Source: Sphingobacteriales bacterium
GTDB lineage: Bacteria; Bacteroidota; Bacteroidia; Sphingobacteriales; Sphingobacteriaceae
Reading direction: 5' to 3'
Length of the DNA stretch: 64,000 nt
NCBI GenBank assembly: GCA_025353765.1
Contig: JANXOD010000008.1
Coordinates: 248,001-312,000 of the forward strand
In this document: one piece after another, positions 11,922 to 39,214 of the stretch
Layout of the letters: the number at the start of each line of letters is the position of its first letter
Numbering within the stretch: position 1 is the first letter of the stretch
Made by a program: the position numbers and the translations under genes
Notes under the pieces: model-generated
Seen by the model: the letters and a program-made list of their open reading frames with translations, nothing else
What the model was told of the DNA's origin: nothing
The model's database searches: none

Positions 11922-14144
11922 TTGGAAAATACCCAAATATCCACACTCGAAACCGCTAAAGAATTAGGTTTGCTACCCCAAGAATACGACCGGATTAAAG
12001 AAATTTTAGGCCGCATTCCAAATTTTACGGAGCTTTCTATTTTCTCCGTGATGTGGAGTGAGCATTGCTCCTATAAAAATTCAATAACCTGGCTTAAAAC
12101 CTTACCCAAAGAAGGCCCGCGGATGTTGGCCAAAGCCGGAGAAGAGAATGCCGGAATGGTAGATTTAGGTGATGGAATTGCTTGTGTTTTTAAAATAGAA
12201 TCACATAATCATCCATCAGCTTTAGAACCTTATCAGGGAGCTGCAACAGGAGTAGGAGGGATCAATCGCGATATTTTTACCATGGGAGCCCGTCCCATTG
12301 CCCAGCTTAATTCTCTGCGTTTTGGCGATTTAAGTTTAGATCGTACGAAATGGCTCATAAAAGGAGTAGTGAAAGGTATTGGGGATTATGGCAACGCGTT
12401 TGGTATTGCCACAGTTGGGGGTGAATTATTCTTCGACGAATGCTATAATATTAATCCACTGGTCAATGCTATGTCAGCCGGAATTGTAAAGGTGGGAGAA
12501 ACCGTTTCTGCCACCTCTTACGGTGTAGGAAACCCAGTTTATATTGTAGGCTCAGCAACCGGTAAAGATGGGATTCACGGAGCCGCCTTCGCATCTAAAA
12601 ACATTACAGAAGATTCTATAAATGATCTTCCTGCAGTTCAGGTTGGTGATCCTTTCCAGGAGAAATTACTGCTTGAAGCCACACTGGAAGTCATCAAAAC
12701 CGGCGCTGTTGTGGGAATGCAAGATATGGGAGCAGCAGGAATCATCTGTTCCAATTCAGAAATGTCTGCCAAAGGTGAACATGGAATGCGCATTGATCTG
12801 GATAAAGTCCCTATGCGACAGGAAAACATGAAGCCTTTCGAGATCTTATTATCAGAATCTCAAGAACGCATGTTGATTATAGTTGAAAAAGGTCGTGAGA
12901 AAGAAGTAGAAGCAGTTTTTGATAAATGGGATTTAAATTGTGTCATTATCGGCGAAGTAACAGATACTAAACGTCTCCAATACTTTATGAACGGAGAATT
13001 GGTAGCCGATGTTCCGGCAGATGACCTGGTTTTAGGTGGCGGAGCTCCTGTTTACGAACGTGAATACCGTGAACCTGCTTACTACAAGCAAAACCTGAAG
13101 TTTAAACTCGAAAATATTCAAGAACCTTCAGATTTTAAAGCCGTCGCAGATCATTTAATCTCTCATCCAAATATAGCCTCAAAGCGTTGGGTTACGGATC
13201 AATATGATTCTATGGTTGGAACTGCGACCATCACAACCAACAGGCCTAGCGATGCAGCCATAGTAAATATTAAAGGAACTCATAAGGCGATTGCATTAAC
13301 AGTAGATTGTAATTCACGTTACGTATATGCTGATCCGGAAAAAGGTTGTGCCATTGCGGTAGCCGAAGCTGCACGAAATATTACTTGTGCCGGAGGCGAA
13401 CCTGTAGCCATCACCAATTGTCTTAACTTTGGAAATCCATACGTGCCCGAAGTGTACTGGCAGTTTGTTGGAGCTATTAAGGGAATGAGTGCAGCCTGTA
13501 CTAAATTCGAAACTCCAGTAACGGGCGGTAATGTGAGTTTTTATAATCAATCATCAGATGAAGGACCAGTATTTCCAACGCCAACTATCGGGATGTTGGG
13601 AATTCTGGATGATATTTCCAACTTCATGACTTCTGACTTTAAGAATGAAGGCGATTTAATCTACCTTATCGGTAAAAGCGTAAACGATATCGCATCCTCA
13701 CAATATTTAGCCTCTTTTCATGAAATAACTTCTTGTCCGGCTCCTTATTTTAATCTGGATGAGGAATATGCCATGCATCAGGTGATTAAGCAATTAATAA
13801 AACAGGGTTTAATTGAATCTGCACATGATGTTTCTGATGGCGGATTGTATATTACCCTGTTAGAATCGGCTATGCCCAATGATTTAGGCTTTGAAATTGA
13901 AACAGATGCTGAGATTCGTAAAGATGCTTTCCTTTTCGGCGAAGCCCAGGGCAGGATAGTGGTTTCGGTTAAACCGAATACACAGGAAGCTTTTATTGAA
14001 TTAATGGCTACGTCCGAAGTAGACTTTAGTTTACTTGGAATAGTTAATAATGGTGAGTTGAAAGTCGACGATCAGTCATTTGGATCTGTGAATGAAGTGA
14101 AAAACAGCTATGATCATGTTTTGCACCATATTTTGGGAGAATAG
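11922..14144 (+). CDS. purL: Phosphoribosylformylglycinamidine synthase subunit PurL (small type)
   Basis: PurL makes FGAM from FGAR, ATP and the ammonia supplied by PurQ, the fourth step of purine synthesis. The protein is of the small (about 740-residue) type that needs PurS and PurQ; purS is at 44853-45104 in this window. Recognisable pieces are PNFTELSIFSVMWSEHCSYKNS near the start, the Gly-rich ATP site (GDGIACVFKIESHNHPSALEP), the GGEL and GMQDMGAAGI segments, and the second half with SAHDVSDGGL. The frame is open from the ATG at 11838, but the extra 28 residues do not look like PurL and cover a promoter-like TACTTTTG. I therefore prefer the TTG at 11922 (740 residues); this start is not certain. 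Confidence 0.93.
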   Translation: MENTQISTLETAKELGLLPQEYDRIKEILGRIPNFTELSIFSVMWSEHCSYKNSITWLKTLPKEGPRMLAKAGEENAGMVDLGDGIACVFKIESHNHPSALEPYQGAATGVGGINRDIFTMGARPIAQLNSLRFGDLSLDRTKWLIKGVVKGIGDYGNAFGIATVGGELFFDECYNINPLVNAMSAGIVKVGETVSATSYGVGNPVYIVGSATGKDGIHGAAFASKNITEDSINDLPAVQVGDPFQEKLLLEATLEVIKTGAVVGMQDMGAAGIICSNSEMSAKGEHGMRIDLDKVPMRQENMKPFEILLSESQERMLIIVEKGREKEVEAVFDKWDLNCVIIGEVTDTKRLQYFMNGELVADVPADDLVLGGGAPVYEREYREPAYYKQNLKFKLENIQEPSDFKAVADHLISHPNIASKRWVTDQYDSMVGTATITTNRPSDAAIVNIKGTHKAIALTVDCNSRYVYADPEKGCAIAVAEAARNITCAGGEPVAITNCLNFGNPYVPEVYWQFVGAIKGMSAACTKFETPVTGGNVSFYNQSSDEGPVFPTPTIGMLGILDDISNFMTSDFKNEGDLIYLIGKSVNDIASSQYLASFHEITSCPAPYFNLDEEYAMHQVIKQLIKQGLIESAHDVSDGGLYITLLESAMPNDLGFEIETDAEIRKDAFLFGEAQGRIVVSVKPNTQEAFIELMATSEVDFSLLGIVNNGELKVDDQSFGSVNEVKNSYDHVLHHILGE

Positions 14145-19307: not shown

Positions 19308-19382
19308 GGTGGTTGTAGCTCAGTCGGTTAGAGCATCGGTTTGTGGTACCGAGGGTCGTGGGTTCGAGCCCCATCATCCACC
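19308..19382 (+). tRNA. tRNA-His (anticodon GTG)
   Basis: The cloverleaf can be folded by eye: G-1 at 19308 opposite C73 (the His-specific extra base pair), D stem GCTC/GAGC, anticodon stem TCGGT/ACCGA with loop TTGTGGT (anticodon GTG), variable loop GGGTC, T stem GTGGG/CCCAT with loop TTCGAGC. CCA is not encoded. The acceptor stem GTGGTTG/CATCCAC has a U-U mismatch at pair 5:68; related bacteria normally have CAACCAC here. The last bases of the gene are part of a 19-bp sequence repeated at 20255. Confidence 0.96.
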
Positions 19383-19387
19383 CTTTT
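19369..19387 (+). repeat. att-like direct repeat, left copy (3' end of tRNA-His)
   Basis: The 19 bases starting CCCCATCATCCACCC and ending TTTT cover the end of the T arm, the 3' acceptor strand and four following T. The same 19 bases occur at 20255-20273 with no mismatch. A duplicated tRNA 3' end is the usual footprint of integration by a tyrosine recombinase. Confidence 0.8.
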
Positions 19388-19425
19388 CCCTCTTTACACA
19401 TACGTAAAGAGGGATTTTTGTTTTT
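19388..19425 (+). terminator. Intrinsic terminator after tRNA-His
   Basis: A perfect 10-bp stem (CCCTCTTTAC / GTAAAGAGGG) with a 6-base loop is followed by ATTTTTGTTTTT. It lies immediately after the left att-like copy, so in the integration model it belongs to the inserted DNA. Confidence 0.85.
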
Positions 19426-19564
19426 ATCGTCACTTGTCGTCATATCAAGATATAGCAGTCTATAAAAAAAAGCATAATGCCTGCGAGATGAAACACATTA
19501 TTAAAAAGCAGTCTTGACGGTAAGAATAAAATTATAAGGTTATTAAGTAGGAAATAAATTAGAT

Positions 19565-20164
19565 ATGAATAAAGCTATTATTAGAGACGTATTACCATCA
19601 AGAAAGGATATAGTAAAAGCAATAATACTATTTTTTTTCGCCATTGTTTTTAAATGGATTTGGAATTATGGATTTGAAACGCTTTTAGAAGTAAATACTA
19701 AATTTTCAAATTTCTATTATACAGAAGTAGCCAAGAATGTATCTTATGATTGGCTTATTAAATATATTATTCTGCTTTTTTTTATAATAGCGATGTCAAT
19801 ATTACATTTACTAGCATTAAACAATTTAAATAGATTTAAAAAAACATTAGATAAAGAATTTAAGAAGGCTGAAATTTCAAATGAAACTTTTTTAGTCAAG
19901 TTGAAACGGATGGCAAATCTTACCTTGGGGATGCTTATCTTATTACCGTTTATATGCTATTCAATTTATTGTACAGGCATATTAATTGAAAAAAAGAATG
20001 AGTCTTTTATATGGAAATTAAATGTAATCTCACCATATATTAATGAAAATCAAGTTCTAAAACTTAAATCTGACTGGGCCCTTATGAAAAATAGCCATGA
20101 TTACGAAAAAATTAATAATCAACTTGACTCTACTATGAAGATTAAGAAATTATACCGTCAATAA
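19565..20164 (+). CDS. Hypothetical membrane protein inside the tRNA-His-bounded segment
   Basis: A 199-residue protein of unknown function with three likely membrane spans (about residues 18-36 IVKAIILFFFAIVFKW, 62-83 WLIKYIILLFFIIAMSILHLLAL, 114-138 LTLGMLILLPFICYSIYCTGI). A Lys-rich cytoplasmic loop sits between spans 2 and 3, and a polar C-terminal tail (INENQVLKLKSDWALMKNSHDYEKIN) is probably helical. It is the only gene between the two copies of the tRNA 3' end. It could be cargo of the former element or a leftover of its border. No integrase motif is present. Confidence 0.6.
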   Translation: MNKAIIRDVLPSRKDIVKAIILFFFAIVFKWIWNYGFETLLEVNTKFSNFYYTEVAKNVSYDWLIKYIILLFFIIAMSILHLLALNNLNRFKKTLDKEFKKAEISNETFLVKLKRMANLTLGMLILLPFICYSIYCTGILIEKKNESFIWKLNVISPYINENQVLKLKSDWALMKNSHDYEKINNQLDSTMKIKKLYRQ

Positions 20165-20254
20165 TTTGCTATCAATGGGAAATGTGATCGTCACCAACTT
20201 TATACAATTGATAATGAGGGCACTAAATGGAATTATTTTAAGTATTTCAGCAAA

Positions 20255-20273
20255 CCCCATCATCCACCCTTTT
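20255..20273 (+). repeat. att-like direct repeat, right copy
   Basis: Exact 19-bp copy of 19369-19387. Upstream bases do not continue the tRNA, so this is an isolated 3' end and not a second tRNA gene. Confidence 0.8.
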
Positions 20274-20314
20274 ATGGGATAAGTCGATTTCTTCGATTTA
20301 TCCCATTTTTGTTT
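20274..20314 (+). terminator. Intrinsic terminator after the right att copy, probably the original tRNA-His terminator
   Basis: A 14-bp stem (ATGGGATAAGTCGA / TCGATTTATCCCAT, one G-T pair) with a 5-base loop is followed by TTTTGTTT. It stands in the same position relative to the repeat as the terminator at 19388 does to the tRNA, but its sequence differs. Confidence 0.8.
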
Positions 20315-20481: not shown

Positions 20482-21582
20482 ATGGAAATCAAAGCGGCTG
20501 TACTTAAGGAACCCAAATCAAAATTTGAAATTGAAAATGTTGAATTAGATCAACCCAGGGCCAATGAAGTGTTGGTTAAGATTGTGGCCACGGGTTTGTG
20601 TCATACCGATCTTGCTGTAAGAGATCAGGATATACATGCTTTTGGATTTCCTGCTATTTTGGGTCATGAAGGTGCGGGTATTGTGGAAAGTGTAGGGAGT
20701 GAAGTTGCCAAGGTTAAGCCGGGCGATCATGTGATTTTGGCGCCTGCATCCTGCGGTATCTGTGAATTTTGCCAGTCGGGGCACCCTTCATATTGCCTGG
20801 AGTTCTTCCAGCTCAATATATCGGGAAGGCGTTTAGATGGTTCTGACCCTTATCATCAAAATGGACATCCCATTAACGGGCTGTTCTTTTACCAGTCATC
20901 TTTTGCAACCTATGCATTAGCATCAGAGCGTAATGTGGTAAAAGTATCTAAGGATGTTCCTTTGGAAATGCTTGGCCCTTTGGGTTGTGGCCTGCAAACA
21001 GGAGCGGGGAGTGTATTGAATGTATTAAAACCCAATGCCGGTGAAAGCATTGCGGTATATGGGGTTGGGCCGGTGGGTTTAGCTGGCATTATGGCTGCAA
21101 AAGCAGTGGGTTGTACTACGATCATAGCCGTTGATATTAATGATGAGCGATTGGAGCGGGCAAAAGAATTAGGCGCTACGCATGCTGTAAATAGCAGAGG
21201 GGTAAATTCTGCCGAAATCATTAAAAAACAAATAGCACCCGATGGCATACATTATGCGTTTGACACTACCGGGCGAAACGATGTCATCAATCAAGCAATC
21301 ATCGCTTTAAAAAACTTAGGGAAATGTGCACTCGTAGGCGTATCTGCTGCTCCTAAACTGGAAATAGATAATGCTGTTTTTACGATGGGGAAATCCATCC
21401 GGTTTGTAATTGAAGGTGATAGCGTTCCTGATATATTTATTCCACGTTTAATTGAACTGTATCAAAAAGGATTGTTTCCTTTTGATAAATTAATTAAATT
21501 CTATGATATGGATGAAATCAACCAGGCTGTGGAAGATTCGGAGAAGGGAAGTACATTAAAGGCGGTTATACGGTTTGCATAA
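20482..21582 (+). CDS. Zinc-dependent alcohol dehydrogenase (aryl/benzyl alcohol dehydrogenase-like)
   Basis: A 366-residue medium-chain dehydrogenase. Catalytic zinc ligands Cys40 (GLCHTD) and His62-Glu63 (GHEGAG) and the structural zinc cysteines 91, 94, 97 and 105 are all present. The Rossmann motif is VYGVGPVGLAGIMAAKAVG, followed by an acidic residue in IAVDINDERLERA, which suggests NAD over NADP. The pattern around the active site (FQLNISGRRLDGSDPY, FFYQSSFATYALASERN) is closest to benzyl/aryl alcohol dehydrogenases. It oxidises an alcohol to an aldehyde or the reverse; the real substrate is unknown. It is a single-gene unit downstream of the tRNA-His scar, so it may be affected by that insertion. 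Confidence 0.88.
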   Translation: MEIKAAVLKEPKSKFEIENVELDQPRANEVLVKIVATGLCHTDLAVRDQDIHAFGFPAILGHEGAGIVESVGSEVAKVKPGDHVILAPASCGICEFCQSGHPSYCLEFFQLNISGRRLDGSDPYHQNGHPINGLFFYQSSFATYALASERNVVKVSKDVPLEMLGPLGCGLQTGAGSVLNVLKPNAGESIAVYGVGPVGLAGIMAAKAVGCTTIIAVDINDERLERAKELGATHAVNSRGVNSAEIIKKQIAPDGIHYAFDTTGRNDVINQAIIALKNLGKCALVGVSAAPKLEIDNAVFTMGKSIRFVIEGDSVPDIFIPRLIELYQKGLFPFDKLIKFYDMDEINQAVEDSEKGSTLKAVIRFA

Positions 21583-21631: not shown

Positions 21632-21946
21632 GAAAGAGTCAGACTTTACAGAGAAACCAGCTGACTTTGCATGGAAATCGATAAGCTTCGTGCGGAAATA
21701 GAGAAGCTTTGCATGGAAATCGACAAGCTTCGTGCGGAAATAGGGAAGCTTTGCATGGAAATCGACAAGCTTCGTGCGGAAATAGGGAAGCTTTGCATGA
21801 GAATCGACAAGCTTCATACGGAAATAGGGAAGCTTTGCACGGAAATCGATAGGCTTCGTACGGAAATAGGAAAGCTTTGCATGGAAATTGATAAGCTTCA
21901 TGGGGAAATAGAGAAGCTTTGAATGGAAATCATAAGCTTTGCTGAG
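21632..21946 (+). repeat. Tandem array of about fifteen 21-bp units (42-bp higher-order unit)
   Basis: Two alternating 21-mers, GAAATCGACAAGCTTCGTGC(G) and GAAATAGGGAAGCTTTGCAT(G), repeat head to tail. Central units are identical or nearly so, and both ends are degenerate (from 21632 and to 21946). The unit is a multiple of three, so every frame repeats a short peptide. Most of the 370-bp space between adh and the cytochrome gene is this array; the remainder shows nothing recognisable. Confidence 0.9.
21671..21922 (+). CDS. Possible small coiled-coil repeat protein
   Basis: An 83-residue frame through the repeat array gives a near-perfect leucine-zipper: units of 14 residues (MEIDKLRAEIGKLC) place Ile at heptad position a and Leu at d throughout, with charged residues between and one Cys per 14 residues on the same face. 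Such regularity is expected of a parallel coiled coil. No clear ribosome-binding site or promoter is seen, and the opposite strand also has a 100-residue open frame with a less protein-like composition. It may be an expressed protein or only an effect of the 21-bp repeat. Confidence 0.35.
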   Translation: MEIDKLRAEIEKLCMEIDKLRAEIGKLCMEIDKLRAEIGKLCMRIDKLHTEIGKLCTEIDRLRTEIGKLCMEIDKLHGEIEKL

Positions 21947-38323: not shown

Positions 38324-39214
38324 TTAAAAACTTCTTATTGCACGAACATATTCATAATACTCAGTCTTATTTTTTCCATGACCACCATCATTATCATGGA
38401 AGGATTTTCCATTATTACTACCAATATTAGTAAAGAGTGTATACCATGCATAGTTGACATCATATTGTGTAGAAGACCAATAGGTACCACTAGTAAAACC
38501 ACCAACTTCAGTTTTTTTGCCATTTAATGTTTCTAATTGGCTTTTTGCAGGCAAATACCAACCAGTACCTAAATTTTTGCACATTAAAGCAGCATAAGTT
38601 AGGTAAGCGCTATTATTTGCAGTTTGAGCTTGAATAATATTCTGGGTGTTTGTATATCCATCCGTATTGTTTGTATTAGGTACATTAAAAGCAGCAGATG
38701 ACCAGTAAATAAAATTGCCGGTACCACTTTGAGTAATATTTGTTTTTGCTGCTATTAAACCATGTACTCCTGTAGCATCCACATCAAATATTTTACCACC
38801 ACCATACAGTATAGGATTTAATACACCTGCAGTCCCTGCACTTGCTGTAGGCACTGTTAATGTAATTGTTTTAAATGTTGCATCAAAACCATTCGCAGCA
38901 GCTTGGCTAACTGTTATTTTTGTTGTGCCGGCTTTTAACATAGTTACAGTACCAGCAACAATTGTAGCAACAGTTTTATCACTACTATCGTAGGTAAAAG
39001 TCCCTGTGGTATTTTTACTACTAACAGTTAATTTAAATGTTAGAGTAGATGGAAATGTTGAGAAACCTGCTGTATTGGGAGGGTCTTTAAACTCATATTT
39101 AGGTACCGTAAAACTAAGATAACTTACGGAGCTTGCTTTTGATGCTGTAGTTGATTTTTTACAGGCAGATGCAATCAATAGTACAGATAGCATGGTTAAG
39201 GTTAATTTTTTCAT
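38324..39214 (-). CDS. Lipoprotein with Big2-like domain and DUF1566-like C-terminal domain (paralogue 1)
   Basis: A 296-residue exported lipoprotein (LTMLSVLLIASACKK). Residues about 50-125 form a bacterial Ig-like domain (FKLTVSSKNTTGTFTYDSSDKTVATIVAGTVTMLKAGTTKITVSQ), then PILYGGGKIFDVDATGVHGLIAA and a C-terminal domain with GTGWYLPAKSQLETL and TYWSSTQYD ... YVRAIRSF, the pattern of DUF1566/Lcl domains seen in surface proteins. Paralogue 2 (39292-40164) is 77 bp upstream on the same strand. The pair probably arose by tandem duplication. A surface-binding role is inferred only. Confidence 0.78.
   Translation of the reverse strand: MKKLTLTMLSVLLIASACKKSTTASKASSVSYLSFTVPKYEFKDPPNTAGFSTFPSTLTFKLTVSSKNTTGTFTYDSSDKTVATIVAGTVTMLKAGTTKITVSQAAANGFDATFKTITLTVPTASAGTAGVLNPILYGGGKIFDVDATGVHGLIAAKTNITQSGTGNFIYWSSAAFNVPNTNNTDGYTNTQNIIQAQTANNSAYLTYAALMCKNLGTGWYLPAKSQLETLNGKKTEVGGFTSGTYWSSTQYDVNYAWYTLFTNIGSNNGKSFHDNDGGHGKNKTEYYEYVRAIRSF

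Follow-up and report, generated by a model that had tools for sequence, protein, structure and literature searches.

The window, by which we mean the whole 64,000-nucleotide stretch of Sphingobacteriaceae DNA that was analyzed, carries a tRNA-His gene whose 3' end is found a second time 886 bp further on (Table 1). The repeated unit, CCCCATCATCCACCCTTTT, is present as two exact copies, the identity shared by both being 15 nt of the tRNA and four T residues, and behind each copy lies a terminator-like hairpin (19387-19414 and 20274-20306; two found in the region compared to 0.5 expected in shuffles). A sequence-only reading of this DNA had singled out the 19-bp repeat as the mark of an integrase-made insertion, and the repeat was confirmed: exactly two core sites exist in the assembly of the 2.83-Mb genome even when up to three mismatches are allowed, and the reversed core pattern, used as a control, gave 0 sites. 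Apart from the core pair, direct 19-mer repeats in the window are confined to a 42-bp tandem array close to 21.7 kb and two copies at 38786/39736.

Table 1. Features of the tRNA-His locus (positions in the window).
Feature	Position	Strand	Basis or remark
tRNA-His (GTG anticodon)	19309-19383	+	ARAGORN; integration target, att core is its last 15 nt
attL core	19369-19387	+	Final 15 nt of the tRNA, then TTTT
Terminator now behind tRNA-His, probably element-borne	19387-19424	+	80-nt shuffle comparison
Tandem TCGTCA	19427-19432, 19437-19442	+	Putative integrase arm-type sites, attL side
Proposed deletion zone; the integrase gene starts here in relatives	19443-19564	+	
ORF199 (199 aa)	19565-20164	+	Three predicted (hydrophobic) membrane spans; putative cargo gene
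TCGTCA, putative attR arm-type site	20188-20193	+	67 nt ahead of attR core
attR core	20255-20273	+	tRNA-His 3' end, copy 2
Distal terminator, probably the displaced tRNA-His original	20274-20311	+	Resembles terminators directly behind tRNA-His in some family genomes

The 867 bp between the cores have a G+C content of 27%, compared to 34.5% for the window, and a value as low as that of the segment is reached in only 0.7% of the 886-bp subwindows (step of 50). The low G+C content and the absence of the segment from relatives indicate that the DNA bounded by the direct repeat of the tRNA 3' end is foreign. ORF199 was the sole ORF found between the two cores, no integrase similarity inside the segment was better than an E value of 0.79, and no transfer gene is encoded there, in agreement with the earlier description of one three-span membrane protein gene and no integrase. 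Since the integrase is missing, we regard the segment as a remnant rather than a complete element.

Relatives of ORF199 were sought widely. The 886 bp are not shared by all close relatives, as the best ORF199 match in the 19 other genomes of the genus had an E value of 0.03. Among 398 other genomes of the family, the best E value was 0.004; 20 of them gave matches at E values of 0.004 to 0.02 that were partial and often interrupted by stops, which is chance level for a search of this many genomes. No relatives were found in GTDB species contigs or IMG/VR by exact-peptide seeding or in plasmids, and phages gave one weak partial match (E value of 0.6). The structure predicted without an alignment was all-helical, with a mean pLDDT of 68.6 and a pTM of 0.34, and such a model is too weak for use in fold comparison. 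The gene is a candidate for phage cargo retained after the loss of the rest of an element.

The tRNA-His loci of 20 relatives (18 members of the genus and two further members of the family) were compared, as the sequence-only reading had suggested, and neither of the two findings named there as refuting it was made. The window genes upstream of tRNA-His, which by eye are those of a copper ATPase and the RNase HI or FBPase side, also adjoin tRNA-His in 18 of the 19 other genus members, and none of the 20 relatives has a second core in the 1.0 to 15.5 kb of downstream DNA covered. These loci did not include an empty site whose right flank is that of the window, and this counts against the interpretation as a scar; apart from one 35% match 13 kb away, no gene of the right flank of the window lies near tRNA-His in any of the 20. 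In that flank, an alcohol dehydrogenase gene with 43% G+C (20482-21582) lies beside the segment and is possibly a separate acquisition; its best-scoring match among 60 other family genomes is 38% identical. The 42-bp tandem array follows at 21665-21939, with 6.6 copies, 89% matches and frames open on both strands.

The closest counterparts of the two ends come from loci that still have an integrase. In G292 (Sphingobacteriaceae MAG ES-bin-166; L140/L160, L176), an integrase gene with Phage_integrase and Phage_int_SAM_5 domains lies directly behind tRNA-His, and a second exact core is found 17,455 bp downstream. This element uses the same target and the same 15-nt core as the window and has a similar terminator and similar arm motifs at its integrase end, but unlike the window, it contains the integrase and some 17 kb of other DNA, and the ORF at its right end is not similar to ORF199. 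A PHROGs scan of 10 proteins (nine from G292 and ORF199) gave one match below 0.001, to a terminase large subunit (E value of 2.7e-5), and two further weaker ones. The terminase match and a related phage contig are the reasons why we call the G292 element prophage-like; at 17.5 kb (L140:2305-13001 and L160:1-7274), it could represent an undescribed group of small temperate phages. The related contig, L161 (IMG/VR contig 3300030617_000044), encodes an integrase that is 51% identical to that of G292 and shows the order arm-like repeats, tRNA-His-like core, terminator, repeats and integrase; the 8.5 kb examined contain no tRNA gene, and we read the core region as a free attP. The third locus, L177 in Mucilaginibacter pankratovii, has the same type of terminator as the window and a GCGTCAC motif at the same distance past the tRNA but differs in that its target is tRNA-Leu and its integrase is present.

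The 80 nt past the tRNA in the window align to the integrase sides of G292, L161 and L177 with scores of 46, 29 and 38, none of which was reached by any of 2,000 shuffles, whereas the scores for the 80 nt past the distal core (14, 12 and 18) do not exceed those of shuffles. In all four loci, the core is followed by a hairpin, a T-run and then (T/G)CGTCAC, which lies 44 nt past the core in the window, G292 and L177 and 43 nt past it in L161, and TTACA occurs in the first arm or the loop of the hairpin. The similarity extends beyond the terminator, with scores of 32 (G292), 20 (L177) and 16 (L161) compared to a best of 16 among 58 other tRNA-His tails. The window thus has the terminator and arm-type repeats found on the integrase side of integrase-bearing relatives, with the discrepancy, which speaks against a scar, that its attL motifs are spaced 10 nt apart and those of the relatives 12. 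A tandem repeat with a 12-nt spacing precedes the integrase in 7 of 12 loci of this integrase family as scored by script, and an imperfect one can be seen by eye ahead of the integrase in L177; in three of the remaining four loci, the start of the integrase could not be placed because the protein was matched only from residue 53 or later. TCGTCA occurs 10 times on the two strands of the window (12 expected), and 3 of the 10 fall in the segment, all on the plus strand; the motifs were picked after the alignment had been seen, and any chance values for them are therefore after the fact. We take the tRNA-side end to be derived from the element because of the 80-nt similarity to integrase sides together with the motif positions at both ends.

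At the distal end, GCGTCA precedes the core at -67, -86 and -101 in G292 and at -86 and -102 in L161, and the position at -67 is common to G292 and the window, where the motif reads TCGTCA. The agreement with G292 is limited to this motif position, as the whole attR side of the window aligns with neither G292 nor L161 (scores reached by 1,978 and 241 of 2,000 shuffles, respectively). The similarity of the distal terminator to tRNA-His tails of the family is marginal (5 of 200 shuffles reach the score); the distal terminators of G292 and of G220, a larger tRNA-His island described below, clearly match the tRNA-His tails of other family genomes (0 of 200 shuffles each).

Terminators alone do not polarize the locus, and comparison with the integrase-bearing loci was therefore needed. 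Each terminator of the window has look-alikes adjoining tRNA-His in relatives, the terminator part of the proximal end taken by itself also resembles some other tRNA-His tails, and the proximal terminator of G220, beside its integrase, does so too (score of 37; 1 of 200 shuffles). Over 50 nt, one other tRNA-His tail gives a score of 31 with the proximal side of the window, compared to 36, 30 and 27 for L177, G292 and L161; over 80 nt, the best and next best of the 58 other tails score 31 and 29, the best being below G292 and L177 and above L161, whose score equals the next best. Past query position 119, the joined empty-site query matched at least 8 genomes besides our own and the proximal query at least 11 genomes, with 399 searched by each query. 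A call of the host end from terminator similarity alone was rejected, as look-alikes exist on both sides. The tail comparisons kept 58 and 57 tRNA-His tails, leaving out those of G014, G292 and G220 as well as duplicates and tails truncated at the end of a contig, and without adding the L003-L045 tails; the set includes loci fetched as matches to either query, as well as L141 and L113, which are possibly disturbed. On balance, these sequence comparisons place the host on the right and the element on the left. The earlier proposal that an element brought its own terminator fits this polarity, as similar terminators separate core and integrase in three integrase-bearing loci, at tRNA-His and tRNA-Leu; the distal terminator is probably the displaced one of the host, with the marginal likeness given above.

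Similar ends in integrase-bearing loci, in addition to the repeat itself, support an insertion made by an integrase at tRNA-His. It is very improbable that the repeat arose by chance or as a slippage duplication of the tRNA tail independently of any integrase. Likeness at the level of the terminator is indeed common among the tRNA-His tails of the family, but the attL side is similar beyond the terminator, the motif positions match at both ends, and the two copies of the core are the only ones in the genome.

Conjugative elements also carry SAM_5 tyrosine integrases, and the segment could be what is left of an integrative conjugative or mobilizable element instead of a phage. The genome itself has, by eye, an ICE-like element with a SAM_5-type integrase elsewhere (C37). 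We consider such an origin unlikely, since the ends closest to those of the segment come from a phage contig and a prophage-like element, the ORFs of G292, read by eye except for about 4.5 kb of its middle, include nothing recognizable as conjugative, and the segment lacks any transfer gene.

A deletion remnant and a mini-element mobilized in trans had been left side by side in the sequence-only reading. For the latter, the segment would be a nonautonomous element of about 0.87 kb with one membrane protein gene, moved through its att ends by the integrase of a related or coresident phage. Identical cores, arm-type motifs at both ends in the positions seen in integrase-bearing loci, and a frame that is open over all 199 aa are consistent with this, and if true, it would represent a minimal single-gene phage-dependent element in Sphingobacteriaceae. 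A satellite of this type should be present in several independent copies or carriers, but the segment is a single occurrence in the data searched, with neither a second copy nor an ORF relative in the 398 family genomes, GTDB contigs, IMG/VR or plasmids and only the weak partial ORF match in phages. Nor does its own genome offer a matching integrase. The 44-contig draft, from which a helper gene may be missing, has four tyrosine recombinase matches: C38, which we take to be Xer-like, C6, presumably a second Xer, C29, which by eye lies between hsdS-like genes, and the integrase of C37. None of these four loci matched the integrases of G292 or G220 at an E value of 0.001. The remnant is thus the better supported of the two options, and mobilization in trans seems quite unlikely. 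At the C29 locus (L068), two genes that by eye are hsdS-like and a fragment that by eye is hsdR-like adjoin the recombinase, possibly forming a phase-variable type I restriction locus.

The parent phage was also sought by exact att and arm patterns in IMG/VR. Some patterns had no match, and one was found in 7 contigs, none of which has a related integrase in the DNA examined.

Integrase-less, att-flanked DNA at RNA genes has parallels. As described in PMC5704250, cis-mobilizable elements (CIMEs) are elements that have lost their integration and transfer genes while keeping attL and attR, as exemplified by ICESt1-related elements of Streptococcus thermophilus, and integrase-less islands at ssrA in Dehalococcoides are described in PMC3146451. 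The segment is like both in being att-flanked at an RNA gene and devoid of integration and transfer genes, and it differs in comprising only 886 bp, in being most likely phage derived rather than conjugative and in having att sites that are putative. With cores and motifs kept at both ends and both sets of genes gone, its architecture is CIME-like. A CIME derives from an ICE or IME, and the ends most similar to those of the segment are phage-like; as the segment is by origin most likely a prophage remnant, we do not classify it as a true CIME.

Other tRNA-His loci show related arrangements. When 250 genomes of the order were scanned for the 15-nt core with at most one mismatch, a search that covers genera whose tRNA-His ends like that of the window, pairs on the same strand of one contig and within 60 kb were found in four genomes: our own, G100 and G220, with distances of 5.6 and 46 kb, respectively, and G182. 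The two G182 sites are part of a longer repeat and are not tRNA-His. The 46-kb island of G220 (L104:11460-12872, L103:12634) occupies a tRNA-His gene next to which a divergent tyrosine integrase is encoded, and GGGACACAA occurs as a tandem repeat roughly 41 and 52 nt past the tRNA. In G100, the 3' end of tRNA-His and its terminator are duplicated 5.59 kb apart (L101:7694-7708 and 13284-13298), and the genes between them are by eye those of a response regulator, a histidine kinase, a TonB receptor and a lipoprotein, with no integrase recognized by eye; judged from its sequence, this is another integrase-less tRNA-His island. Four family genomes (G131:C14, G181:C23, G263:C12 and G163:C66) have a pair of tRNA-His-like matches that face in opposite directions, some 3.3 kb from each other. 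In G014 (L057, tRNA-His and the 300 nt behind it), a member of the same genus, tRNA-His is followed by TCCGACACA arm-like repeats about 40 and 51 nt on and by a frame that by eye resembles only the start of the G220 integrase. This end does not align with that of the window (596 of 2,000 shuffles reach the score), and the layout suggests a second tRNA-His scar in this genus from which the integrase was deleted.

Taken together, we consider the segment to be, with a probability of roughly 80%, the deletion remnant of a prophage-like element that kept attL, attR and one cargo gene. This is a known kind of element, at the very small end of its range. In this reading, the tyrosine integrase (Phage_int_SAM_5/Phage_integrase) of a prophage-like element would have catalyzed recombination between the attP core of that element and the tRNA-His 3' end, and the tRNA would have been completed by the element's own 15-nt end, followed by the element's own terminator. 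The tRNA gene would therefore have stayed whole, while its original 3' end and terminator were shifted to the far side. One or more later internal deletions would have taken out the integrase along with almost every other gene, leaving attL (core, terminator and two arm-type repeats), the membrane protein gene and attR (one arm-type repeat and core). We infer the crossover within the core, the function of the arm sites, the deletion and the role of ORF199 as cargo, the last as a gene that would be of the lysogenic conversion type beside attR. An ATGCC at 19477 lies 94 nt past the tRNA, compared to about 101 nt for the start of the integrases of G292 and L177, and is followed by only 4 open codons; no trace of integrase coding sequence was seen in the segment, which is why the deletion can be given only as the probable course of events. 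The segment is probably immobile today, although its excision would in principle be possible if a matching integrase were to arrive later.

In conclusion, the remains of a prophage next to a tRNA gene can be recognizable even when its integrase is lost, the marks being the core repeat, a terminator of the element's type and, on either side, arm-type repeats at set distances. Since a comparable layout is found in G014, this signature may be used to count hidden integration scars.
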